Origin: Mycoplana azooxidifex
GTDB lineage: Bacteria; Pseudomonadota; Alphaproteobacteria; Rhizobiales; Rhizobiaceae
Length of the DNA: 64,000 nucleotides
Direction: 5' to 3'
NCBI RefSeq assembly: GCF_014196765.1
Contig: NZ_JACIEE010000004.1
Span: 294,435-358,434, forward strand
The notes beneath the pieces were generated by a model. The model made no database searches. It saw only the letters and a list, made by a program, of their open reading frames with translations, and was not told where the DNA came from. The position numbers were made by a program, and so were the translations under genes. Below, in pieces: positions 22,845 through 39,862 of the stretch (the stretch's first letter is position 1; each line of letters opens with the position of its first letter).

Positions 22845-25800
22845 CTAGAGCGAATACTCTTCTTGTGATCTCTTTATGACAGTTTCATTTATCTTCACGT
22901 CGATTTTACCGTCGACTTTGCGTTCGGCACGGATTTCGTGCTTCACGCCGGCAAGCGTGACTGCGGCGGTAAAGCCGGACCAGTGCGAGGGGATCGCCGG
23001 TTCGACCACGAGACGGCCATTCTCCTTGCGGATGCCGAGCACGCCTTCGACTGCGGCCCGGTAGAGCCAGCCGGCAGACCCCGTGTACCAAGTCCAGCCG
23101 CCCCTGCCCTTGCGCTCGCCCTCGCCATAGACGTCGGCTGCGACCACATAGGGCTCGACGCGATAGGTCTCGATCGCCTCCGGCGATTGCCCATGCTTGA
23201 TCGGGTTCAGCATGTTCAGGCAGTTCCAGGCATCGTCCGCCCGGCCCTGCACGGCGAGCGCCATCACCACCCAGGCGGCGGCATGCGTGTACTGGCCGCC
23301 GTTCTCGCGCACCCCCGGCGGATAGGCCTTGATGTAGCCGGGATCCTGCTGGCTGTTCTCAAAAGGCGGTGTGAACAGCTTGATGATCCCCGCCTCGCTG
23401 TCGGCGAGCTCGGCCAGCACCGCATCCATGGCGAGCCGTGCCCGCTCCTTGTCGCCTTCGCCGGAAAGAACGCTCCAAGACTGCGCGATCGAATCGATGC
23501 GGCACTCGGCGTTGCCCTGCGAACCGAGCGGGCTGCCGTCGTCGAAGTAGCCGCGCCGATAATGCGCGCCGTCCCAGCCGGCCGATTCCAGTGCCGCCTT
23601 GAGCGTTTCCAGGTGCTCCAGCCAGACGCGGGCGCGATGGTTGTCGCCGCGCTCGCGGGCAATCGGCGCGAAGGCGCGCAGCGTGCCGGCCAGGAACCAG
23701 CCGAGCCAGACGCTCGTGCCCTTGCCGGCCTCGCCGACACGGTTCATGCCGTCGTTCCAGTCGCCGCCGAGGATCAGCGGCAGGCCGTTCTCGCCCGTCC
23801 GCTGGATGGCGAGATCGAGCGCCCGGGCGCAATGCTCGTAGAGTTCCGCTTCTTCCGTCGAACGGCCGGGCTTGAAGAACGAATCGTGCTGCCCCTCGGC
23901 GAGCGGCGGCCCTTCGATGAAGGTCAGCTTCTCGCTGAGGATCGCATGGTCGCCGGTCGAGCCGCAGTACTGGGTGACCGCATAGGCCAGCCAGACGACG
24001 TCGTCCGAAATCATCGTCCGCACGCCCGCTCCCGTTTCCGGCAGCCACCAATGCTGGACGTCGCCTTCATGGAACTGCCGCGACGCCGCGTTCAGGATTT
24101 GCTTGCGGGCGAGTTCCGGTCGATGCGTCAGGAAGGCCAGCGTGTCCTGCAGCTGGTCGCGGAACCCGTAGGCCCCGCTCGCCTGGTAGAAGGCGGCCCG
24201 GGCCAGCACGCGGCAGCCGAGGCTCTGGTAGGGAAGCCATGTATTGACCATCAGGTTCAGCGCCGGATCGGGCGTCTCGACCTGCAGGGTGCCGGTGAAC
24301 TCGCCCCAGAAGGCGCGCATCTTCTCCAAAGCCTCGTCGATCGATGCCGAGACGGCCTCGCCGGCAAGCGCACTCGCCGCCTCGGCCGTATCGCAGTCAC
24401 CGAGCACGAAGAGGATTTCCTTTTCCTCGCCGGGCTGCAGCTTGAAGTCCGTCACGAGTGCCGCGCACGGCGCCCCGTTGCTTTCCATCGTGCCCGACAG
24501 GCCGGCACCGGTCGAAAGCACCGCCGGCATGACGATGTCGCCCTGGCGGCCGATGAACTCGCGCCGGCTCGTCGTGACGCCGGCAAGCTTGCCGTTCGTG
24601 GCAAAGAAGGCGACACGGCCCGAATAGTCGAGGCTGTAAGGGTTTGTCGCAAGGATCGCCCCGCTCGCCTCATCCTGGCTGCACAGGACGAACGGCGCCG
24701 TCCTGGCCGGATTGTTGCCGAGCACCCATTCGACATAGCCATAGGCCGAAAGGTTGCGCGCCGATTTTCCGGTATTGCGCACGATCAGGCGCGAATACTT
24801 CACCGGACGCTCCGCATCGACCGTCTGCACGAGATCCAGCTCCAGCCCGCCGGACGCGGTCCGGAAGGCGGAATAGCCGAGGCCGTGCCAGGTTTCGAAC
24901 AGGACGGACGGATCGCGCGACAGGCCGGCGAAGGGAACGTGCACCGCACCGCTGTCGCGGTCCTTGACATAGAAGGCCTCGCCCGGGCGGTTGATGACCG
25001 GGTCGTTGGTCCACTGCGTGACCTGGTAGTCGCGCGAATTGCGGCTCCAGGTGAAGGCGCCGCCCTCGGCTGCGACGTGGAAGCCGAAGTGCTCGTTGGC
25101 GATGACGTTGATCCACGGATGCGGGGTCCCCTCGCCGCCGCGGACCTTGACGACATATTCGCGCCGCCCGGCGTCGAAGCCGCCATAGCCGTTCCAGAAG
25201 GCCAGGTCGCCGCCGTCGATCGCCGCAGGCTGCCCCTTGCGCTCGGAAGCGGGGACGGGTGCGGCATGCCGGGCCTCTTCCTCTGCGGGAACGGCCGGCG
25301 TGGCGAAGATCGAGATGGCGCGCTCGATCTGGTCGGACAGCGTTCCGTTGCGCGCGTGGAAGACGGCGCGTGCGGTCGCCAGCAGCGCCTGCCAGGTGGA
25401 TACGTCCATCAGGTCGCGGCGAACCGCAAAGATGTGCTGCCGCATGCCGTCCGACTGGCCGCGCATCCGCAGGTTCTCGCACATCTGCTCGAGCGTGTGC
25501 TGCATGTCCTGTGCATAGGACGAAGCCTTCTCGTTGAGGATGACGAGATCCGCCAGCACGCCGCGATGGCGCAGGTATTCCTGGGCCCGCAGCGCCTCGC
25601 GGGCGATCTCCAGGTCCGCATCGTCGTTGATGCGCAGAACGTAGATCGGGAAGTCGCCCGAAATCGCCAACGGCCACAGCGCCGACTGCGAGGTGAGGCC
25701 CGCCTGGACGGTGGCCGCATCCGCGCGCAGGTGCATGTCGGGATAGACGAGATAGCGGCCGAGCGCCTGGAAGCTCGCCGCCTCCTGCGAGGTGACGCCG

Positions 25801-28800
25801 ATATGGCGCAGATGGACTTGCGAACGGGTCCACGCATGAATGAGCTCGTTGTTGAATGCTTCCGGATGCCGGTAGCGGTCGATCGCCCGATCCAGTTCCT
25901 CACGGTTGGGGGCGGCGATCGTCCAGAAGATCACCTTCACCTTCTTGCCGGCCGGCACGCGGACGACGCGACGCAGCGACACGATCGGATCGAGCGTGAA
26001 TCCATCCGTGCCCGAAAGCTGCGCTCCGGGCTCGAAGGCTGCGGCCGTGGTGAGGCTGCGGCCGCGGCCGATGAAGTTTCGCCGGTCCGTCTCGACTTCC
26101 GTCCGGCGCGAACCGGCATTGTCGACGATCAGGTGCGCCACGCACATGTCGGGATCGCTTGGGCTGCGCTTGTTGCGCGAGATGCGCACGACGTCGCCGC
26201 GTCGGCCGATCTCGGTCTTGAGGAACATGCGCGCGAACAGCGGATGCGCATTGTCTGTATCGTCCGTCGTGACCACCGGCTCCATGTAGGAGGTCACCTC
26301 GATGAAGCGGTCCTCGGCGCCGGTGTTGAGCAGCGTCAGGCGCCGCCCCTCGGCATCGTGCTCCGTCGCGACGATGCACTCCAGTTCGCTCGAAAGCGTC
26401 CCGACGGTCTTGATGAACTCCGCCTTGTCGTCGCTGAACTGGGTCTTCGTCTCTTCACCCTCGGCGCGCTTGGGTTCCACCGTCGTCGACCACCACTCAT
26501 TGGTGGCCGTGTCGCGCAGGAAGACGAAGGTGCCCCAGCGATCTTCCGCCGGATCGGGCTTGAAGCGGGTGACCGACTGGCCGTTCCAGTGCGCGTAGCC
26601 GGAGCCGGTCGCCGTCAGCATGACCGAGTAGTGGCCGTTGGAGAGGAACGCCGCCTCGCGGTCTTGCGATACCGGATCCTCGATCACGCGGACTTCGGGC
26701 CGCAGCAGGTCGGCCTGCGTGCTGCCGACCGTTTCCGGCTCGCGCTTGGTGTTGATGATCGGGATTTCGCGCGGCGCCTTTTCCTGCAGGAGCAGTTCGG
26801 CCGCCTCGATCACCGGGTCGGCATGGAAGCGCGCCCTCAATGCGCCGTTGAACGCGACGTTGGCGACGGCTGCGATCGACATGCCGTGGTGATGGGCCAT
26901 GTAGTTGTGCACGACCGCGCAACGCTTGCCTTCCGGCACGCGCGTCGGCGTGAAATCAACCGCGTCGTGGAAGCCGTAGATGCCGAGCGCGCCGAGCCTG
27001 CGCAGTTCGTTCAGGTTGTCGAGAGCAGCCTTCGGCGCATACTGCGTCGCCAGCAGCGAGGCATAGGGCGCGATGACGGCGTTCTGGCCGAGGCCGCGCT
27101 TCAGGCCCAGCGTGGGCACGCCGAAGTTGGTGTACTGGTAGTTCATGTTGTGGTCGCGGGCGTTGAACGCCGCTTCCGAGATGCCCCACGGCGTGCCGAG
27201 GCGCTGGCCGTGGTTCTGCTGCTCCTTGACGATCAGGTTGTTGGTCTGGTTCAGGATGCCGCCCTGCGGCTCCTGCATCACCAGCGGCGGCATCAGGTAT
27301 TCGAACATCGAGCCGGACCACGAGACGAGCGCGCCGCGCGAACCGATCGGCACGACCGGGCGGCCGAGCTTGTGCCAGTGCTCCGTCGGCAGGTCGCCCT
27401 TGGCGATCGCAAACAGGCTGGTCAGGCGCGCTTCGGAAGCGAGCAGGTCGTAGCAGGCCTCGTCGAGTTCGTTGGTCTCGACCCGGTAGCCGATCGACAG
27501 CAGCCGCCGTTCGGGCCGGAACAGGAAACCGAAGTCCATCGAGAACGCGATGTCGCGGGTGCGGTCGCGCAGCACGACGAGCCGCTGGCGCAACGCCTCG
27601 ATGCTGCCGAGGTCGAACACGCTGTCGGCGATGTGCCCTTCGCAGGTGGCCACCAGCGCGTTCGCCCACTTCATCACTTCCGCGCTCTGCGGGCTCTTGA
27701 TCTCGTGGTCGAGGTTGGCGATCAGCTTGTTGACGTCGCGGGCCAGCACGCCGAGGTTGATCACGCGGATCGAGGCGAACTCGTGCTCGCGCTTGACCGC
27801 GGCAAGCGCGTTGTGGAAGCCGGCGATCTGTTCTTCGAGGAGCCGGCGCAGCGGGCGCACGGTCTTGCGGTCGTCCGGCAGTTCGGCCAGCACTTCCGAC
27901 AGGATCGAGGCTGCATCGCCGATGCCGTCGAGGCTGCCGTGCAGATGCGCCGACGGCGCTTCCGCCCATTCCCGGCAGACGGACGAGACGGCGATGAGAT
28001 GGCCCGCGAGGTTGCCGCTGTCCACCGCCGAGACATAGCGCGGCCCGAGCGTCTCCAGCGTGTTGGTGTGGTACCAGTTGTAGAGGTGGCCGCGGAACTT
28101 CGGCATGCTGTCGATCGTCGAGACCGTCTCCTCGAGGCGGCGCACCGTCTCCTCGAAGCCGATCCAGCCGAAGTCGCGCGCGGAAACCACCGACAGGAGG
28201 TAGACGCCGATATTGGTCGGCGAGGTGCGCTCCGCGAGCACGGGCTGCGGCGTTTCCTGGAAATTGTCGGGCGGCAGGAAGTGCTGCTCGGCGGTGACGA
28301 ATTCCTCGAAATAGCGCCAGGTGCGCCGGGCGATCTTGCGAAGCTCGGTCACGACGCCCTCGGGCACGACCAGCTGATCCTCGGTCTCCGCCGACTGGCT
28401 GACATACCAGGCGATCGCGGGCGAAAGGATCCAGATCACCGCAAAGGGCATGGCGATGAAGGGCAGGCCGGTCTTGGAGAACAGCGCCAGGCCGACTGCG
28501 ACCAGGGCCAGCGCCGGCGCCTGCCACATGTCGACGTAGTAAGACCAGATGCCGCCGCGCGAAGAGCTGTGCACCTGGGCTGCCGTCCGCCATTCCAGCA
28601 TGTGCTTGCGGCTGACGAACATGCGGTAGAGCGAGCGGATCGTCGCATCCGCCATCATCGCCGCCTGGTGGGCGATGAAGACGATGCGCAGTGCCACCTG
28701 CGCGTTGGCCGCCCTGATGTCGGAGAAGATCGTCTGCAGGTGGGCCCGGGCGACAATGTCGCTGCGGCGCGGCACGGCGCCGGTGAACAGCGACAGGGTG

Positions 28801-31334
28801 GGCGCGACGAACAGCAGGAAGATCAGCACCAGCTGCCAGATCAGCGCCTGGCGCGGCTCCATGTAATACCAGCCCATGACCGAGGCGACGAGCCAGCAGA
28901 TGGGGATAAGGCAACGGCGGAGATTGTCGTACATCTTCCAGCGGCCGATCATGGACACCCCGCTCGACGGCCTGAAGATGTAGGGCAGCAACTGCCAGTC
29001 GCCGCGCGCCCAGCGATGCTGGCGCGAGTTCTCGACCTCGTAGCGGATCGGAAAATCCTCGACGAACTCCACGTCGGTGACGAGCGCGCAGCGCGCATAG
29101 GAGCCTTCGAGAAGGTCGTGCGACAAGATCGAGTTTTCCTCGATGCGACCCTTCAGCGCCGCCTCGAAGGCATCGACGTGATAGAGGCCCTTGCCGGTGA
29201 ACGTGCCCTCGTCGGTGAGGTCCTGGTAGACGTCGGAGACGGTGAAGACGTAAGGATCGACGCCCCGGTTCGCCGAGAAGATGCGTTGGAACGTCGACGC
29301 CTCGTCGCCCGTCGTCAACGACGGGGTGACGCGCGGCTGCAGGATGCTGTAGCCGGCGACGACCCGCTGGGTCTCGGGGTCGATCAGCGGGCGATTGATC
29401 GGGTGGAACAGCTTGCCGACGAGATTGGTGGCCGCGTCACGCATCAGGCGCGTGTCCGAATCGAGGGTCAGCACGTACTGGACGTTTTCCGGGACGACGT
29501 TGGCGCCGGGCAGGAAGCTGGTGTCGCCGTCGCCGCGCAGGAGCAGGTTCAGCTCGTGCAGCTTGCCGCGCTTGCGCTCCCAGCCCATCCACACGCCTTC
29601 CTGCGGATTGAACTGCCGGCGGCGATGCAGGAGGTAGAAGCGCGTGCGACCGTCATAGGCATAGCGCGCCGAAAGCAGCGCGATCTCGCGCTTGGCATAT
29701 TCGAGGACGTCGAGATCCTCCGGCGTCTCCTCGACCTTGCTGTCGACCCAGTCGCTGACGAGCGAGAAGTAGATCTCGCCGCGCGGGTTGGCGAGGTAGT
29801 GGACCTCCAGGTTGCGCACCAGTTCGTCGACGTGATCGCGCTTGGAAATCAGGCAGGGGACGGCGACGAGCGTGCGCGCCTCCTCCGGTATCCCCTCGCG
29901 CAGTTCGTAGCCCACCAGTCGGGTCGGCTTCACGCAGAGAGTGACGAGCGTGTTGTAGAGCCCGACGGCACCTTCCGAAGCCGGCACCGCGAACAGGATC
30001 AGCATGATCAGCCAGGCGCCGTCCGGAATGTCCATCTGGTCGAGGAAGTAGTAGACCCCGACCATGGCCAGAAGCGTCAGCAGGATCACCGGCCCGGCAA
30101 TGGCGAACCAGTCGAGCGAGCGGCTGAAGCGGACGATGCGCTGCAGGATGGAGGGACGGTACCCGATCCGCCTTTCCAGGATGTCGCGCTTGTTGCCGAC
30201 CAGGTAGCTGCCGACATTGGCTTCGTGCGCACCGGCGACGTTCCCCGCCGCCATGTCCTCGGCGGTCATGGCCAGCGCCATCTGCGTCACTTCCAGCTCC
30301 GTCTTGCCGGAGCGGCGGGCCATCTTCTCGATCGTGTCGCGATAGGCGTTGCGTGAGCCGAAATCGAGCTCGGTATAGTCCGAGCCCTCGCGCAGCGCCG
30401 CATCGAGGCGGCTGACGCTCTCGACCCAGACCGGCCATTCCGTGTCGTCGATCGTGCGCAGCCCCTTGATCAGGTTGCTCATCGTGACATTGCCGGAGGA
30501 AAGCCGGTTCTGCTCGGCGACGAGGACCTCTTCCAGGTCGGTCCCGCGCGCCTCGATCTGCTTTTCCAGCCACTGGATGGCCGCGCCCGATACCTGCAGC
30601 CCGTCGCGCAGGCGATAGAGCAACTGGGCGACGAAGGTATTGTCGGCGACGAGGTGCTCGATCTCGCGCAGGATGACGATGCTCTTCTCCGCGTCGTTCT
30701 GGCGGATCAGCTCGTCGGCGACCTCGTTGGCCTTGCGGCGCATGCCGCGCGAACGCTCGACACGGCTGGAAATGCGCCGCAGGTTCTCGATCAGGATGAA
30801 GCGGACGATCGACGGCAGCGCCCAGAGTTCGCCGATCTTGAAGGCCTCGGCCTTCTGGAATCCCTCGACGATCGCCGTGAGGCTCTCGCGCGAGACGCTG
30901 CTCTGGGTGTGGGCGACATAGAGCCAGCCGAGCGCCAGCGTCCGCGGGATCTCGACGTCGCCGATCTTCATCGTCGGCAGCTGGCGATAGAAGCGGCGCG
31001 GGAAATCGCGACGCACTTCCTGGATCGCCTCCTCGACCACGTAGTAGTTGTCGAGCAGCCATTCCGCCGCCGGCGTGATCGTCGCCCCCGCTTCGACGTC
31101 GCGGGCCGTCGTCTGGTAGACGCGGAAGATTTCCTTCTCGTTTTCCCGGTGGCGGGCGCGGAAGTCGAACGGCGTGAAGCCCGGCAGCGAATTCGCGCCG
31201 TTCTTCGCCAGGTCCTCACCGCAGGCGCTCAGTTCCTCGAGGGTGAAATAGGTATCCCGGATCGAATCGTTGTAGTCGATCTGCTTGGATTCCGTCTCGC
31301 GCAACGAGGTCTGTGGTCTTTTGTGAAGGGACAT
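22845..31334 (-). CDS. ndvB: Cyclic beta-1,2-glucan synthase NdvB/ChvB
   Basis: NdvB is a giant inner-membrane enzyme that starts, elongates and cyclises beta-1,2-glucan from UDP-glucose. The 2829-residue length is almost exactly that of known NdvB/Cgs proteins. From N to C it shows a cytoplasmic start, a membrane pair near residues 410-470, a GT84-type glycosyltransferase with TLDSDTRLMRD (about 625) and QHRWARGDW (about 775), more membrane segments (about 805-980), a glucoamylase-like region with QTNNLIVKEQQNHGQ (about 1380), and a C-terminal GH94-like phosphorylase domain with GGDWNDGMNRVG (about 2528) that sets chain length. The ATG has only a weak ribosome site. It is the largest gene in the window. 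Confidence 0.97.
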   Translation of the reverse strand: MSLHKRPQTSLRETESKQIDYNDSIRDTYFTLEELSACGEDLAKNGANSLPGFTPFDFRARHRENEKEIFRVYQTTARDVEAGATITPAAEWLLDNYYVVEEAIQEVRRDFPRRFYRQLPTMKIGDVEIPRTLALGWLYVAHTQSSVSRESLTAIVEGFQKAEAFKIGELWALPSIVRFILIENLRRISSRVERSRGMRRKANEVADELIRQNDAEKSIVILREIEHLVADNTFVAQLLYRLRDGLQVSGAAIQWLEKQIEARGTDLEEVLVAEQNRLSSGNVTMSNLIKGLRTIDDTEWPVWVESVSRLDAALREGSDYTELDFGSRNAYRDTIEKMARRSGKTELEVTQMALAMTAEDMAAGNVAGAHEANVGSYLVGNKRDILERRIGYRPSILQRIVRFSRSLDWFAIAGPVILLTLLAMVGVYYFLDQMDIPDGAWLIMLILFAVPASEGAVGLYNTLVTLCVKPTRLVGYELREGIPEEARTLVAVPCLISKRDHVDELVRNLEVHYLANPRGEIYFSLVSDWVDSKVEETPEDLDVLEYAKREIALLSARYAYDGRTRFYLLHRRRQFNPQEGVWMGWERKRGKLHELNLLLRGDGDTSFLPGANVVPENVQYVLTLDSDTRLMRDAATNLVGKLFHPINRPLIDPETQRVVAGYSILQPRVTPSLTTGDEASTFQRIFSANRGVDPYVFTVSDVYQDLTDEGTFTGKGLYHVDAFEAALKGRIEENSILSHDLLEGSYARCALVTDVEFVEDFPIRYEVENSRQHRWARGDWQLLPYIFRPSSGVSMIGRWKMYDNLRRCLIPICWLVASVMGWYYMEPRQALIWQLVLIFLLFVAPTLSLFTGAVPRRSDIVARAHLQTIFSDIRAANAQVALRIVFIAHQAAMMADATIRSLYRMFVSRKHMLEWRTAAQVHSSSRGGIWSYYVDMWQAPALALVAVGLALFSKTGLPFIAMPFAVIWILSPAIAWYVSQSAETEDQLVVPEGVVTELRKIARRTWRYFEEFVTAEQHFLPPDNFQETPQPVLAERTSPTNIGVYLLSVVSARDFGWIGFEETVRRLEETVSTIDSMPKFRGHLYNWYHTNTLETLGPRYVSAVDSGNLAGHLIAVSSVCREWAEAPSAHLHGSLDGIGDAASILSEVLAELPDDRKTVRPLRRLLEEQIAGFHNALAAVKREHEFASIRVINLGVLARDVNKLIANLDHEIKSPQSAEVMKWANALVATCEGHIADSVFDLGSIEALRQRLVVLRDRTRDIAFSMDFGFLFRPERRLLSIGYRVETNELDEACYDLLASEARLTSLFAIAKGDLPTEHWHKLGRPVVPIGSRGALVSWSGSMFEYLMPPLVMQEPQGGILNQTNNLIVKEQQNHGQRLGTPWGISEAAFNARDHNMNYQYTNFGVPTLGLKRGLGQNAVIAPYASLLATQYAPKAALDNLNELRRLGALGIYGFHDAVDFTPTRVPEGKRCAVVHNYMAHHHGMSIAAVANVAFNGALRARFHADPVIEAAELLLQEKAPREIPIINTKREPETVGSTQADLLRPEVRVIEDPVSQDREAAFLSNGHYSVMLTATGSGYAHWNGQSVTRFKPDPAEDRWGTFVFLRDTATNEWWSTTVEPKRAEGEETKTQFSDDKAEFIKTVGTLSSELECIVATEHDAEGRRLTLLNTGAEDRFIEVTSYMEPVVTTDDTDNAHPLFARMFLKTEIGRRGDVVRISRNKRSPSDPDMCVAHLIVDNAGSRRTEVETDRRNFIGRGRSLTTAAAFEPGAQLSGTDGFTLDPIVSLRRVVRVPAGKKVKVIFWTIAAPNREELDRAIDRYRHPEAFNNELIHAWTRSQVHLRHIGVTSQEAASFQALGRYLVYPDMHLRADAATVQAGLTSQSALWPLAISGDFPIYVLRINDDADLEIAREALRAQEYLRHRGVLADLVILNEKASSYAQDMQHTLEQMCENLRMRGQSDGMRQHIFAVRRDLMDVSTWQALLATARAVFHARNGTLSDQIERAISIFATPAVPAEEEARHAAPVPASERKGQPAAIDGGDLAFWNGYGGFDAGRREYVVKVRGGEGTPHPWINVIANEHFGFHVAAEGGAFTWSRNSRDYQVTQWTNDPVINRPGEAFYVKDRDSGAVHVPFAGLSRDPSVLFETWHGLGYSAFRTASGGLELDLVQTVDAERPVKYSRLIVRNTGKSARNLSAYGYVEWVLGNNPARTAPFVLCSQDEASGAILATNPYSLDYSGRVAFFATNGKLAGVTTSRREFIGRQGDIVMPAVLSTGAGLSGTMESNGAPCAALVTDFKLQPGEEKEILFVLGDCDTAEAASALAGEAVSASIDEALEKMRAFWGEFTGTLQVETPDPALNLMVNTWLPYQSLGCRVLARAAFYQASGAYGFRDQLQDTLAFLTHRPELARKQILNAASRQFHEGDVQHWWLPETGAGVRTMISDDVVWLAYAVTQYCGSTGDHAILSEKLTFIEGPPLAEGQHDSFFKPGRSTEEAELYEHCARALDLAIQRTGENGLPLILGGDWNDGMNRVGEAGKGTSVWLGWFLAGTLRAFAPIARERGDNHRARVWLEHLETLKAALESAGWDGAHYRRGYFDDGSPLGSQGNAECRIDSIAQSWSVLSGEGDKERARLAMDAVLAELADSEAGIIKLFTPPFENSQQDPGYIKAYPPGVRENGGQYTHAAAWVVMALAVQGRADDAWNCLNMLNPIKHGQSPEAIETYRVEPYVVAADVYGEGERKGRGGWTWYTGSAGWLYRAAVEGVLGIRKENGRLVVEPAIPSHWSGFTAAVTLAGVKHEIRAERKVDGKIDVKINETVIKRSQEEYSL

Positions 31335-31754
31335 CAGCTTTTTTCTGTTTTGGAGCAGGGTTGGTGGATCCGGCCTCGGCCGGATTTACGTTCGGCAGGC
31401 AGGGATCATCCGAGGGGTCTTGTGCAACAGGACGGCGTCATGCGTTCCTCCGTACGATCCCGCCAGCGGACTCCATGCGCACGGAAATGCGCCCTCGATC
31501 GGCGGGCGACATGTAACGGGCGACAGGGTCTTCTCCCGCTTGGCTGCGTGGCGCATGAAAACGGCTTTCTTTAGCCGCAATGGCAGGCTGTTGCAACAGA
31601 ACTGGACGGCAGGGGCAAGGCGACTCCGACTATATCTAGGCCATCAAATACCGCCATTGCCCTACGCGACCGGCGGTGAACGGGGTCTGAACGCGATGCA
31701 TCCGACAAGGGTTCCACCCCTTTTCCAATTCAGTCGATAACCCGACCGTCCGCG
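31335..31754. other. Upstream region of ndvB, no gene seen
   Basis: About 420 bp between the ndvB start and the promoter of the cobalamin riboswitch hold no convincing gene on either strand. It must contain the leftward ndvB promoter, which I could not place. The short open frames here are arginine- and proline-rich in all readings and look non-coding. Confidence 0.4.
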
Positions 31755-31783
31755 TTGACATCGCCGCCGCCTTCGGGTCAGCT
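31755..31783 (+). promoter_or_regulatory. Candidate promoter for the riboswitch transcript
   Basis: TTGACA at 31755-31760 is a perfect -35 element. Seventeen bases downstream lies TCAGCT, a poor -10, but rhizobial -10 elements are weakly conserved. A transcript from here would begin about where the riboswitch fold begins. Confidence 0.4.
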
Positions 31784-31789
31784 TGGCGC

Positions 31790-31980
31790 ATCAGGGTTCT
31801 TCCGAATCGTTTACGGTCCGGAAGCGAAGAGGGAAGCCGGTGCGATGGTCCTGCCATCTATTCCGGCGCTGCCCCCGCAACTGTAGGCGGTGAGCTGCTG
31901 TCCCCCATGCCACTGGCACGTTTTCCGTGCCGGGAAGGCCGGACAGAAGCGACGACTCGCAAGCCAGGAGACCTGCCCTG
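31790..31980 (+). promoter_or_regulatory. Cobalamin (adenosylcobalamin) riboswitch
   Basis: The conserved elements of the B12 riboswitch occur in order: GGTTCT at the 5' end, AGGGAAGCCGGTG, GCCCCCGCAACTGTA, GCCACTGGCAC, GCCGGGAAGGCC, and the B12 box AGCCAGGAGACCTGCC at 31962-31977. The element reads on the + strand toward a 71-residue open frame and metH. Cobalamin binding usually turns the downstream gene off. A hairpin covering the ribosome site of the small gene lies 91 bp further on, so control is probably at translation. Confidence 0.95.
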
Positions 31981-32070
31981 ATGAACTCGTAACGTCCATG
32001 GGCGGGGTGTCCCACGGGTGCGCTTGCTCCGTGTGAAAGCGGAACTTCAGCTTGCGTGCGTCCGGTCATC

Positions 32071-32088
32071 CCCCAATTCCAATTGGGG
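32071..32088 (+). promoter_or_regulatory. Hairpin that masks the ribosome site of the 71-residue gene
   Basis: CCCCAATT (32071-32078) pairs perfectly with AATTGGGG (32081-32088) around a two-base CC loop. The GGGG arm is also the ribosome-binding site of the ATG at 32096. It is therefore a candidate sequestering stem, the output element of the upstream cobalamin riboswitch. Confidence 0.7.
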
Positions 32089-32095
32089 AAAATAC

Positions 32096-32311
32096 ATGCT
32101 TGTCACCATAGAACAGAACGCTTCGGGCTCCGGAAAGCCGGAATCCGTCTTCATCTCGTGGCTGCTCTGGCAGCCGCGCGGCGCCGACCTGCCGACAGAG
32201 GCCGTTAAGGAACTGAGGAAGCTAGCGCCCTACAGGGACCGCGATCCGGACATCGTCCGGCTCCGCTCGCTGTTTGAGCGACTTGCAGGAAGATCCGGCC
32301 GACCGCACTGA
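32096..32311 (+). CDS. Unknown 71-residue protein under B12 riboswitch control
   Basis: I do not recognise this protein. It starts at ATG 32096 with GGGG eight bases upstream, runs MLVTIEQNASGSGKPES and then a hydrophobic and aromatic stretch VFISWLLWQPRGADLP, followed by a charged helical part (AVKELRKLAPYRDRDPDIVRL; LRSLFERLAG). It has no signal peptide and no cysteine or metal motif, and it is probably cytoplasmic. It is the first gene after the cobalamin riboswitch, and its ribosome site lies in a hairpin, so it is likely made when B12 is scarce. metH follows 79 bp after its stop, behind its own apparent promoter. A role linked to B12 or methionine metabolism is inference. Confidence 0.65.
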   Translation: MLVTIEQNASGSGKPESVFISWLLWQPRGADLPTEAVKELRKLAPYRDRDPDIVRLRSLFERLAGRSGRPH

Positions 32312-32328
32312 TACCGCATAAAGACATA

Positions 32329-32357
32329 TTGACATAAACATATCTTTATGTGATCTC
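32329..32357 (+). promoter_or_regulatory. metH promoter with 20 bp palindromic operator
   Basis: TTGACA at 32329-32334 is followed after 17 bases by GATCTC as a weak -10. The spacer is occupied by the palindrome ACATAAACATATCTTTATGT (32332-32351), with perfect seven-base arms. A degenerate second copy (GCATAAAGACATATTGACAT) overlaps it at 32316-32335. The motif resembles the operator of ArsR-type regulators of the S-adenosylmethionine/homocysteine cycle in alphaproteobacteria, and its position fits repression. Confidence 0.65.
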
Positions 32358-32390
32358 CGATACAGACATGCTGCATCGGAGGGCTTTGCC

Positions 32391-36182
<3,792 letters not shown>

Positions 36183-36273: not shown

Positions 36274-37035
36274 CTATTCCCCGCGCCCGCGGAACCGCCG
36301 CTGGTAGGCCGGATCGTAGAGCGAACTCTCGCGGAAATCGTCCGCCTCAAGCGACCTTCCGACGAAGATCAGCGCCGTCCGCTCGATCGGCTCCTCGGCC
36401 ACCTTCGCCGCGATGTCGGCGAGCGTGCCGCGCACCACGCGCTCGTCCGGCCAGGAGGCCTTGACGACGATCGCGACGGGGCAGTCGGCGCCATAGAGCG
36501 GCGTCAGTTCCGACACCACCTGGTCGAGCGCATGGATGGCGAGATGGATCGCAAGCGTCGCTCCGGTCGCGCCGAAGCCCTGCAGCGTCTCCCGGTTCGG
36601 CATCGGCGAGGCGCGGCCGGACACGCGCGTCAGCACCAGGCTCTGCGCCACCGCGGGGATCGTCAGTTCGCGCTTCAGCGCCGCCGCGGCCGCTGCAAAC
36701 GACGGCACGCCGGGCGTCAGCGTATAGTCGATGCCGTGCCTCTCCAGCCGGCGGATCTGTTCGGCGACCGCGCTCCAGACGGAAAGATCGCCCGAATGCA
36801 GCCGCGCCACGTCCTCGCCCGCCGCGGCAGCGCGCACATACTCCGCCTCGATCTCGTCGAGCGACATCGGCGCGGTATCGACGATGCGCCCGCCCGGCGG
36901 GCAGTATTGCAGAAGGTCCGGCGATACGATCGAACCGGCATAGAGACAGACCGGGCAGCGGCCGATCAGGTCGCGCCCGCGGACGGTGATCAGGTCGGCG
37001 GCGCCCGGCCCGGCGCCGATGAAGTGGACGGTCAT
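36274..37035 (-). CDS. cobM: Precorrin-4 C11-methyltransferase CobM
   Basis: CobM methylates C11 of precorrin-4 to give precorrin-5 in the aerobic cobalamin pathway. The 253-residue length matches known CobM. SAM-dependent tetrapyrrole methylase motifs are visible: [18 protein letters not shown] at the N terminus, [12 protein letters not shown] (about residue 85) and [14 protein letters not shown] (about 110). The ATG at 37035 has GAGGAAACAG upstream; an upstream extension to 37083 is unsupported. It lies 85 bp downstream of cobL on the same strand and converges with metH. Confidence 0.95.
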
Positions 37036-37120
37036 TCTGTTTCCTCGATCCCTCTGCGATGCCGACCCGGCCGGATCGCGCACAGCCTTGTTCGGACGGC
37101 CGGTCCCTGCCGGCCGTCGG

Positions 37121-38380
37121 TTATTCCTTTGCCGCCTTCGCCCAGCGCCATTGCGTCACCGGCATCGCCGGCCGCCAGCCGGTCATCTGTCCGACGGGTG
37201 CGGCGCGCGCGATGTCGATCCTGGTCAGCGAACCGCCGAGCCGCGCATGGGCGGACAAAAGCACCGCCTCCATCTCCGTCGTCACCGCATTGGCGACCAG
37301 CCGGCCGCCCGGCTTCAGCGCCGCGACCGCGGCCTCGAACACCCCGTCCTCGCTGCCGCCGCCGCCGATGAAGATCGCGTCGGGCTCCGGCAGGTCGGCC
37401 AGCGCTCCGGGCGCCACACCCTCGACCACCGACAGGCCGGGCACGCCGAACTGGCCGGCATTCCGGGCGATCCGCGCCGCCCGTTCGGGCAACGCCTCGA
37501 TCGCGATGGCCCGCAGGGACGGATCGGCCAGCATCCATTCGATGCCGACCGAGCCGGAGCCCGCGCCGATGTCCCACAACAGTTCGCCGCGCCGCGGCGC
37601 CAGCGCCGAAAGCGTCAGCGCCCGCACCTCGCGCTTGGTGATCTGGCCGTCGTGCTCGAACAGCGCGTCGTCGCGCCCCGCCGTGAAAGGCAGGACATGG
37701 GCTCCCGCATCGGCCTCGACCTCCACCGCGCAAACGTTCAGCATGTCGATGCCGTCGAGCGCCGCACTATCTGCCCGATGCGTGCGCACCCGCTCGCGCG
37801 GACCGCCGAGCGCTTCCAGCACCGTCAATGTCGACCGGCCGAATCCGGCTTGCGAAAGCAGCGTCGAGAGCGCCTTCGGCCCGTCGCTGTCGGAGGTCAG
37901 GGCCAGGATGCGGGCGCCGGGATGCAGGTGCGGCCGGATCAGGTCGACCGGCCGGCCGTGCAGGGAAACGCAGACCGTATCCTGCAGCGCCCAGCCCATG
38001 CGCGAGGCGGCGAGACTGAAGGAGGAGGGTGCCGGCAGCACCGTCATCTCTGCGCGCGGGATCGCGCGCGACAGCGTGACGCCCACGCCGAAGAAGTAGG
38101 GGTCGCCCGAAGCCAGCACCACGACCGGCCGGTTCCGCGCGGCCAACACCACCTCGACGGAGCGCTCGAACGGGCTCAGCCAGCTCCGGCGATCGCCGGC
38201 GATCGCCGGGGATGCGAGCTCCAGGTGCCGCGCCCCGCCGAAGACGATCTCCGCCTTCGCAATTGCCGCCTTGGCCGCGTCGGAAAGACCGGCTAGACCA
38301 TCTTCGCCGATCCCGACGATGGTGAGCCACGGGGCTGCGGCAGGCAATGTGGACGGGTCAGGCGTGGACAAGAAACGCAT
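37121..38380 (-). CDS. cobL: Precorrin-6Y C5,15-methyltransferase (decarboxylating) CobL
   Basis: CobL methylates C5 and C15 of precorrin-6B and decarboxylates the C12 acetate side chain, giving precorrin-8. The N-terminal half is a tetrapyrrole methylase ([26 protein letters not shown]). The C-terminal half is a class I SAM methyltransferase ([15 protein letters not shown] about residue 270, [15 protein letters not shown]). The start is uncertain: ATG at 38380 gives 419 residues and overlaps the divergent cobK start, while TTG at 38347 gives 408 residues, nearer the known length of about 413, and would not overlap. No strong ribosome site decides between them. Confidence 0.93.
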
Positions 38381-39134
38381 CCTCATTCTGGGCGGCACCG
38401 CGGAAGCCCGCGAACTTGCGGGCCGGCTGGCGTCGCGCGGCGATTTCGAGGTGACGCTGTCGCTCGCCGGCCGTACCCTCGACCCCGCGCCGCAGCCCGT
38501 CCCGGTCCGCACCGGCGGCTTCGGCGGCGCAGACGGGCTGGCCGGCTATCTGGCCGCGCAGCGCATCGACCTTCTGGTGGACGCCACCCACCCGTTCGCG
38601 CGGCAGATCTCGGCCAATGCCGAGCGCGCGGCCGAACGGACGGCAACGCCGATCCTCCGCCTGCAGCGCCCCGGCTGGCAGCAGGTCGACGGAGACCGCT
38701 GGACCCGCGTGGCGACGCTTGAAGAAGCGGTCTCGGCGCTCGGCGAGGCGCCGATGCGGGTGTTCCTCGCGATCGGCCGGCAGGAGGCGCACCAGTTCAA
38801 CGCCGCCCCGCAGCATGCCTATCTCGTCCGTAGCGTCGATCCTGTCGAGCCGCCGCTGACCGTGCCGCATGTCACCTACCTGCTCGCCCGCGGCCCCTTT
38901 GCCGTCGACGACGAGATCGTGCTGCTGCGCGACCATCGCGTCGACGCGCTCGTCTCCAAGAACAGCGGCGGCGAGGCGACCTATGCGAAGATCGTCGCCG
39001 CCCGTGCACTGCGTCTGCCCGTCATCATGGTCGAGCGCACTGGAAGCCATAGTGTTACCACGGCGGAAACGGTGGACGAGATACTGCCGCTGATCGATCA
39101 TGTCGCCTCCGGCGGCAGGAAGCGCGGCGTGTAG
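38364..39134 (+). CDS. cobK: Precorrin-6A reductase CobK
   Basis: CobK reduces precorrin-6A to precorrin-6B with NADPH. Family motifs are [17 protein letters not shown] at the N terminus, LVDATHPFARQISANA (about residue 75), FLAIGRQEAHQF and the C-terminal LVSKNSGGEATYAKI. I start at GTG 38364, giving 256 residues; GTG 38349 is an alternative, and the longer frame to 38271 lies within cobL. It is the only gene of the cluster on the + strand: its 5' end abuts or overlaps cobL and its 3' end overlaps the 3' end of cobJ by 37 bp. Confidence 0.94.
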   Translation: MDKKRILILGGTAEARELAGRLASRGDFEVTLSLAGRTLDPAPQPVPVRTGGFGGADGLAGYLAAQRIDLLVDATHPFARQISANAERAAERTATPILRLQRPGWQQVDGDRWTRVATLEEAVSALGEAPMRVFLAIGRQEAHQFNAAPQHAYLVRSVDPVEPPLTVPHVTYLLARGPFAVDDEIVLLRDHRVDALVSKNSGGEATYAKIVAARALRLPVIMVERTGSHSVTTAETVDEILPLIDHVASGGRKRGV

Positions 39135-39862
39135 ACGAGATCGGGCCGCCCGTTGCGGGCGATCACCCGCGTCTGCGCTGATCCGATGATGACGCAGGTG
39201 GCCATGTCCGCCCTCCCCGCATCCGCCTCGCCGAGCGGCATCACCAGCATCTGCTCGTCCGGTCGGCCGGCGGCACGACCGAACACCACCGGCGTCTCCG
39301 CCGGCAGTTCCGCGCGCAGGATCTCGAATGCCTTGCCGAGCTGCCAGGGACGGGCCTTGCTGATCGGGTTGTAGAGCGCCGTCACCAGCCCGGCCTCGGC
39401 CACGAGGCGCAGCCGCTTCTCGATCACCGCCCAGGGCTTGAGGTTGTCCGACAGCGAGATCGCGCAGAAATCGTGGCCGAGCGGCGCGCCGATGCGGGCA
39501 GCGACGGCAAGCATCGCGGTCACCCCGGGGACGACGACGAGGTCGACCTCGCGCCATGCGGCAGGTCCCGCATCGATCGCCTCGCAGACGGCAGCCGCCA
39601 TGGCAAAGACGCCCGGATCCCCGCCGGAGACGACGCAGACGTTCACGCCCTCCGCCGCCCGCCGCAGGGCAGCCTGCGCCCGGTTCAGTTCCTCGCGATT
39701 GTCGGAGGCGACCTTCCTCTGGTCCGGCCGCAGCGACAGCCGGTCGATATAGGGGAAATAGCCGAAGAACTCGATCGAGGCCGAGACCGCCCGCGCCGCC
39801 TCCGGCGTCATCTGGTCCGGGTTGCCGGGCCCCGTGCCGACCACATAGAGCGTGCCGCTCAT
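39098..39862 (-). CDS. cobJ: Precorrin-3B C17-methyltransferase CobJ
   Basis: CobJ methylates C17 of precorrin-3B and drives ring contraction to precorrin-4. The 254-residue protein has LYVVGTGPGNPDQMTPEA at the N terminus, VVSGGDPGVFAMA (about residue 78), VVPGVTAMLAVAARIGAPLGHDF (about 110-130) and ALYNPISKARPW, all typical of CobJ/CbiH. Its ATG overlaps the cobI stop codon (ATGA). Its last 37 bp overlap the end of the oppositely oriented cobK. Confidence 0.95.
   Translation of the reverse strand: MSGTLYVVGTGPGNPDQMTPEAARAVSASIEFFGYFPYIDRLSLRPDQRKVASDNREELNRAQAALRRAAEGVNVCVVSGGDPGVFAMAAAVCEAIDAGPAAWREVDLVVVPGVTAMLAVAARIGAPLGHDFCAISLSDNLKPWAVIEKRLRLVAEAGLVTALYNPISKARPWQLGKAFEILRAELPAETPVVFGRAAGRPDEQMLVMPLGEADAGRADMATCVIIGSAQTRVIARNGRPDLVYTPRFLPPEAT

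Follow-up and report, generated by a model that had tools for sequence, protein, structure and literature searches.

A small protein family behind cobalamin riboswitches in Rhizobiaceae and its possible role when B12 is scarce

Cobalamin (B12) riboswitches are known chiefly for the cis control of enzyme, transporter and synthesis genes, and the established targets of the RF00174 regulon include metE, nrdAB, btuB and the cob genes. In the window, a stretch of 64,000 nucleotides of Mycoplana azooxidifex DNA, one such riboswitch raises a different question. The RNA element, its presumed OFF-switch logic and the neighbouring genes are those of the known regulon, but what it controls is a small protein that has not been described and carries no recognised enzyme or transporter domain. 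What is this protein, and does it belong to the B12-dependent methionine synthase gene, metH, that follows it? An earlier note had proposed a complete cobalamin riboswitch at 31790-31980, a hairpin hiding the ribosome site of an unassigned 71-codon gene (32096-32311), and metH directly behind that gene. The present analysis bears out all of these features, which are laid out as follows.

31777..31994, forward strand: cobalamin riboswitch aptamer RF00174 (cmscan, 133.6 bits against a gathering score of 31.5, model positions 1-189)
31999..32014, forward strand: P13-like hairpin UGGG-CGGGGUGU-CCCA, invariant in 18/18 close leaders
32004..32072, forward strand: putative anti-sequestor, GGGGUG (32004-32009) with CAUCCC (32067-32072), 6/6 pairs possible in 18/18 leaders
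32071..32088, forward strand: putative sequestor hairpin CCCCAAU/AUUGGGG over the ribosome site GGGGA, 7 pairs without mismatch in 18/18 leaders
32096..32311, forward strand: 71-codon small-protein gene of an undescribed family (exact frame, homologs, purifying selection)
32332..32351, no strand assigned: predicted SahR-type palindromic operator ACATAAACATATCTTTATGT between the small gene and metH, conserved in 18/18 loci
32355..32381, forward strand: hairpin in the metH leader containing the ribosome site GGAGG, with covariation
32391..36182, forward strand: metH, B12-dependent methionine synthase (TIGR02082, 1738 bits, cut-off 1010.85)

Elsewhere in the window, on the reverse strand, are a match to the alphaproteobacterial sRNA ar35 (RF02346, 54926-55059, 52.7 bits) and a 2829-codon frame (22845-31334) that resembles, by eye, a cyclic beta-glucan synthase.

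The first matter to settle is whether the small frame encodes a protein. With one genome scanned per species, close homologs of 56-93% identity turned up at 16 loci, belonging to Rhizobium, Shinella and an unclassified isolate; one more, on a Shinella replicon, came from a plasmid search, giving 17 close loci in total. A metH-like start, as read from the sequence, follows the small gene in 18/18 close loci, and the frame has 71 codons in 17 of 18 loci (window included) and 70 in R. alarense. Among 16 sequences, mean pN was 0.196 against a pS of 0.468 in frame, the relation was reversed (pN > pS) in both shifted frames, and, of the 71 codons, 61 varied at the third position, 34 at the first and 28 at the second. 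Judged by these substitution patterns, the small gene is a genuine coding gene under purifying selection. That the frame arose by chance, or is a relic decaying in the riboswitch leader, is hardly credible: the frame is small, and the gene tables of Shinella sp. PSBB067 and S. meliloti p_3, which are incomplete, show no gene at the matching place, but purifying selection and a signature shared across the family contradict this reading, and a chance frame was rejected on pN/pS and third-position variation. The earlier note had looked to a lack of homologs with conserved codons, or to unrelated genes behind the riboswitch in relatives, as signs of a chance frame. The 17 close loci with pN below pS speak against the first; as to the second, the following genes do vary, yet the small gene itself is kept.

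How widespread is the protein, and does it resemble anything known? A single-sequence search found a match in 42 of 297 genomes of the GTDB family, and profile A1, built from protein matches that were not selected for riboswitches, found one in 76 of 394 family genomes and 29 of 109 genera, leaving 318 of the 394 sampled genomes without a profile match, so that most lack a recognisable member. Beyond the family, the same profile matched in 8 of 347 genomes of an order sample and 3 of 289 of a class sample (the own genome is included in each of these counts). When distant members served as plasmid queries, one gave five records and two gave none. The family signature is PE-x-[VI]-F-x2-WL-x3-P...AA, and the most conserved residues over 80-83 members are W (99%), A36 (99%), L59 (96%), L23 (94%), E16 (93%), P27 (92%), F19 (91%) and P15 (90%). 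An AlphaFold2 model from 17 sequences predicts three helices (14-24, 32-46 and 51-65) with a mean pLDDT of 76.3 and a pTM of 0.63; pLDDT is 82-91 over residues 21-60, and confidence is low at residues 1-11 and 68-71. A Pfam and NCBIfam scan of 27 members gave no meaningful match (best 0.021 for one member in Pfam and 0.044 for three members in NCBIfam), a profile search of PDB sequences reached a best E of 0.17, taken as chance, and structure comparison found nothing significant by Foldseek (best E 2.1) or VIA (best Z 3.1, rmsd 4.4, 62 aligned). No relative was found in the viral contigs searched. Among the records inspected, the small gene is unannotated or called hypothetical, and among the open-access PMC matches listed, no title or abstract start concerns it.

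Whether the conserved protein always follows a B12 riboswitch, as the earlier note had asked, can be answered from its neighbourhoods. In the close loci the riboswitch occupies the same place, about 100 bases upstream, in 17/17. A further 75 neighbourhoods in 68 genomes comprise the profile matches down to about E 3e-9; they leave out the seven closest-type genomes (G000, G263, G054, G145, G075, G157 and G011), which are close to the window and to loci L038-L053. In 74 of the 75, the sequence upstream holds a cobalamin riboswitch on the strand of the small gene; the neighbourhoods are related by descent, so that these counts are not independent events. Seventy were found by motif search, L130 and L142 by cmscan, and L158 and L160 at about 5 kb upstream (L173, L174). 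The first riboswitch motif was too narrow and was replaced, and the result was then checked by cmscan and by a covariance model built here, which placed a riboswitch within the fetched stretch in 72 of 75; the motif gave 0 matches in the same sequences read backwards. The one exception, L060, shows no riboswitch in the 2,558 bases upstream, where its contig ends. Four further plasmid matches (L177-L180) have the riboswitch too. Because the riboswitch is nearly always present while the companion genes vary, the constant is B12 control, not metH or any one enzyme.

Among weaker and more distant members the association thins without vanishing. Nine weaker matches (about E 1e-7 to 1e-3) include five with a riboswitch upstream (L182, L184, L185, L186, L189), and none was found at L181, L183, L187 and L188; a class match in G980 (E 1.4e-4) stands directly behind a riboswitch. 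An extended profile, A5, some of whose source sequences were already known to follow riboswitches, found 19 loci (L191-L209, read with short flanks); in five of them a motif match places a riboswitch upstream. For ten places, from other families within the order and class, longer flanks were fetched, and a riboswitch lies upstream on the same strand in seven (L210-L215, L217); the three without one are L216 (a 4.6 kb contig), L218 (a partial motif) and L219 (a match inside an 892-codon frame). No riboswitch was found at the distant, motif-bearing L176 (G883) either. In L215 (G421), the riboswitch is about 3 kb upstream, and three frames between resemble ABC metal transporters by eye.

The companion genes, sorted by hand labels over the 75 neighbourhoods, fall into several unit types. 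The commonest is riboswitch-gbcA-gbcB-small gene (37/75, with L060 included by its gbcAB), followed by 26/75 in which no intact enzyme gene stands between the riboswitch and the small gene, 9/75 of the order riboswitch-nrdA-nrdB-small gene (nrdB confirmed in 9/9) and 3/75 with btu genes between the two; the btu neighbours include btuB/F/C. GbcA and GbcB are no more than GbcAB-like, the L057 proteins reaching 520.6 bits (cut-off 670) and 386.7 bits (cut-off 500). Of the 26, 14 are followed by metH, three by cobF or btuB, two by a second Rieske gene and six by no evident gene, and one has a gbcAB remnant. In the own genome, L005 (C2:338846) is a riboswitch-gbcA-like unit, yet the profile detects no further copy of the small gene in that genome. 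In L150 (G040), a frame resembling a copper ATPase by eye follows riboswitch-nrdAB-small gene.

The small gene is tightly coupled to some of these enzymes. An in-frame start is present in 34 of the 35 gbc-type loci examined, and, taking the start closest to the gbcB stop, 18 of the 34 overlap the stop by 4 nt, 15 begin 0-6 nt behind it and one begins 28 bases before it; in the nrd type, 3-67 nt separate the end of the nrdB match from the profile match, and in annotated Phyllobacterium records the small gene overlaps nrdB. Long open frames in some profile matches had suggested a fusion to GbcB, which was rejected, gbcB having its own stop in the 35 gbc loci examined (L060, L147 and L157 lie outside this check). 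Such a third cistron, overlapping or abutting gbcB, set close behind nrdB and found before the Rieske gene in L119 and L121, might encode an accessory subunit or maturation factor of the iron/oxygen enzymes that replace B12 enzymes (NrdAB, GbcAB-like, the second Rieske protein), made in step with them. We regard this as unlikely, since 26 of 75 neighbourhoods have a riboswitch and small gene with no intact enzyme gene in between, and since the small gene stays open where those enzymes are remnants.

These remnants are instructive. L147 retains residues 1-41 of gbcA joined directly to the final 44 of gbcB; at the L177 locus, on Sinorhizobium meliloti RCAM1115 plasmid p_3, two short nrdA pieces precede the last 53 residues of nrdB, and only two cobF pieces lie behind the small gene; and L136 retains a possible nrdB tail (a weak 12-residue match, E 0.002, that failed an E 1e-3 threshold in another search). 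All three loci keep an open small frame, and their riboswitches score above the threshold set by Rfam. The L177 plasmid is typed as conjugative. On the best tree, the context labels need 16 changes, against a minimum of 6 and a mean of 40 after shuffling, and metH, nrd and cob types are mixed in one starred clade, in a tree of 67 columns with many forks unresolved. Because the gene is kept where nrdAB or gbcAB has decayed and its contexts change often, the evidence argues for a function that is not tied to one neighbouring enzyme. On the other hand, six genomes carry several copies beside particular enzymes (three copies in G290), and these copies, together with the gbcB overlap, suggest enzyme-specific partners, against an enzyme-independent role.

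How would B12 control such a gene? In the window, the sequence 3' of the aptamer runs UGGGCGGGGUGUCCCA (31999-32014), a variable stretch, CAUCCCCCAAUU..AAUUGGGGA and the ATG at 32096. In the putative sequestor hairpin, CCCCAAT (32071-32077) can pair with ATTGGGG (32082-32088) over GGGGA, and the hairpin ends 7 bases 5' of the ATG. The P13 loop (GGGG, 32004-32007) is complementary to the L5 loop (CCCCC, 31872-31876), both being invariant in 18/18 close leaders, and we infer that the two form a kissing-loop pair. The anti-sequestor pairing uses the same P13 loop and is mutually exclusive with both P13 and the sequestor; it is part of the MFE fold of the leader, and an 8-bp helix beside it is paired in 96.5% of cells over the 18 close leaders. 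The anti-sequestor would represent the ON state and the sequestor hairpin the OFF state, and, by analogy with established cobalamin riboswitches, the bound state would be the OFF state. With B12 bound, L13 (GGGG) would kiss L5 (CCCCC) and bar the anti-sequestor GGGGUG:CAUCCC, whereupon the CCCC/GGGG hairpin would mask the ribosome site and turn translation off; with B12 absent, the ribosome site would be free.

Since the pairs are invariant in the 18 close leaders, covariation cannot judge the sequestor, P13 or the anti-sequestor, and the free fold of the leader alone has no extra stability over shuffles (z 0.17). Among 13 more distant leaders, in which no intact enzyme gene separates the riboswitch from the small gene, the P13 sequence ACGGGCGGGGTGTCCCG is identical in nine, and CCCC...GGGG stands directly 5' of the small gene's start in eight (L055, L056, L058, L063, L070, L074, L113, L114); the remaining five have a shorter complement (L061, L117), a hairpin before the remnant frame (L136) or none (L135, L141). 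Translational control is favoured because a terminator-like sequence, looked for in the window leader, was not found. The proposal of the earlier note that the small protein is made when B12 is scarce gains support from this anatomy, with the ribosome site lying in the expression platform, and from its conservation. Across the 29 contigs (5.88 Mb) of the own genome there are seven cobalamin riboswitches; behind the other six, four genes were resolved by eye, namely metE, an nrdE-like gene, a FecCD-type permease and a gbcA-like gene.

Does the small gene's riboswitch also govern metH in the window? The predicted SahR-type operator would open a new control region between the two genes. Sites of this type number five in the own genome at up to 2 mismatches, with 0 in a reversed-pattern control, and adjoin metH, metF, metK, a homocysteine-methyltransferase-like gene and metE (5' of the metE riboswitch), genes that were named by eye; all five sites lie beside methionine/SAM-cycle genes, with which metH shares the palindromic operator. 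A SahR motif upstream of metH in rhizobia is described in the available parts of two reports (PMC8877191, PMC4239095), and the predicted window site fits that regulon. As far as those parts describe it (PMC4239095, PMC8877191), the operator type is shared, but here it stands 3' of the small gene, not 5'. A consensus promoter scan of 31600-32400 found none, and the metH promoter would be placed from the operator alone; metH in the window is probably transcribed mainly from its own SahR-controlled promoter. The hairpin in the metH leader, a possible second layer of metH control, has changes on both sides in 5 of 11 pairs and is paired in 93.4% of cells over 18 aligned loci; its 16 both-side-change cells compare with 5.4 in shuffles (0/500 as high), it carries one mismatch in the window itself, and it has no Rfam match at gathering score. 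Close behind metH, frames at 36274-39862 resemble cobM, cobL, cobK and cobJ by eye.

The earlier note had suggested that the small protein may help MetH, save B12 or act as a regulator; a special tie to MetH is not supported as stated. The family also occurs behind nrdAB, gbcAB-like genes, cobF or btuB/F/C, or alone, and of the 75 neighbourhoods 28 have metH within 5 kb, the other 47 having none in the fetched 5 kb. A dedicated MetH partner, holding or reactivating apo-MetH or handing over scarce B12, would be consistent with the several arrangements in which metH appears (behind the small gene, before the riboswitch, or behind cobF) and with the metH seen by eye beside the distant L214 and L217. 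The 47 neighbourhoods and the operator of the window metH weigh against it, and we consider it rather unlikely. As a frequent neighbour, MetH may still be named, tentatively and with some doubt, as the first candidate target. Co-occurrence with NrdJ was uninformative as a clue to the target, TIGR02504 being matched in 288 of 297 family genomes (262 above cut-off).

A further alternative is that translation of the frame, and not its product, sets the downstream gene in cis, as in the upstream open reading frames (uORFs) of the mycobacterial metE and ppe2 riboswitches. These M. tuberculosis uORFs are the nearest precedent found for a short frame under a B12 switch, and the part of the report available (PMC11260477) describes, as here, a ribosome site masked by the riboswitch and 4-nt stop/start overlaps. 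The position between riboswitch and metH in 18/18 close loci would suit such a role. The M. tuberculosis frames act in cis, according to the same portion of that report (PMC11260477), whereas here the protein sequence is conserved, with a predicted folded core, and the downstream gene is not fixed: the small gene stands behind gbcB or nrdB as well as before metH, cobF or btuB, without a fixed position upstream of one gene. For example, Phyllobacterium zundukense has riboswitch-nrdA-nrdB-WP_100003604.1-metH, and Phyllobacterium sp. 628 has riboswitch-nrdA-nrdB-small gene-cobF-metH. At six loci (L057, L059, L065, L067, L071, L073), the gene that follows either lies on the opposite strand or is preceded by a riboswitch of its own, and in the window the SahR operator intervenes before metH. 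A cis-acting uORF is therefore, on these points, very unlikely.

If the product itself acts, what might it touch? Many divergent members have an arginine-rich C-terminal tail, as do four of the six single-gene units, and such members perhaps bind nucleic acid. A nucleic-acid-binding regulator, its arginine-rich tail touching RNA or DNA, is nonetheless an improbable description of the family, the window protein ending in GRSGRPH, which is not arginine-rich, and the gbc, nrd and metH types having a mean tail charge of only 0.4 to 1.3. A trans-acting adaptor or regulator is the most likely reading of the conserved sequence and its contexts: a small, three-helix cytosolic protein, as modelled, that would act by binding another protein. 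Small alphaproteobacterial proteins with a DUF1127 domain offer a parallel, since they act on nutrient metabolism through protein-protein interaction according to the accessible portion of one study (PMC12501420); for the present protein, such action is proposed. DUF1127 is not among the five Pfam families reported when 27 members were scanned with E values up to 1, and that portion of the study contains no B12 link. The available parts of PMC3766115, PMC2881028 and PMC10117765 do not mention the small protein.

Taken together, the sequence comparisons make it probable that the 71-residue protein is a B12-scarcity factor under riboswitch control that acts in trans. It would tune metabolism while the B12-independent MetE, NrdAB/NrdEF and GbcAB-like enzymes replace B12-dependent ones. 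A bolder version, to which we give somewhat less than an even chance, is that these proteins form an undescribed alphaproteobacterial family of riboswitch-born effectors, which would carry the B12-scarcity signal in trans to targets without riboswitches, for example by keeping apo-B12 enzymes inactive, or by degrading them, as B12-free isozymes replace them. The probabilities given to the alternatives overlap with this explanation and with each other, as the readings are not exclusive. Some of these riboswitch units may already stand in the comparative study of B12 regulation that Rodionov and colleagues reportedly published in 2003. If the proposal is true, a small protein that stands behind a B12 switch and outlasts its neighbouring enzymes would add a protein arm to the B12-scarcity response, and this is directly testable in the soil and root-nodule bacteria in which the gene occurs.
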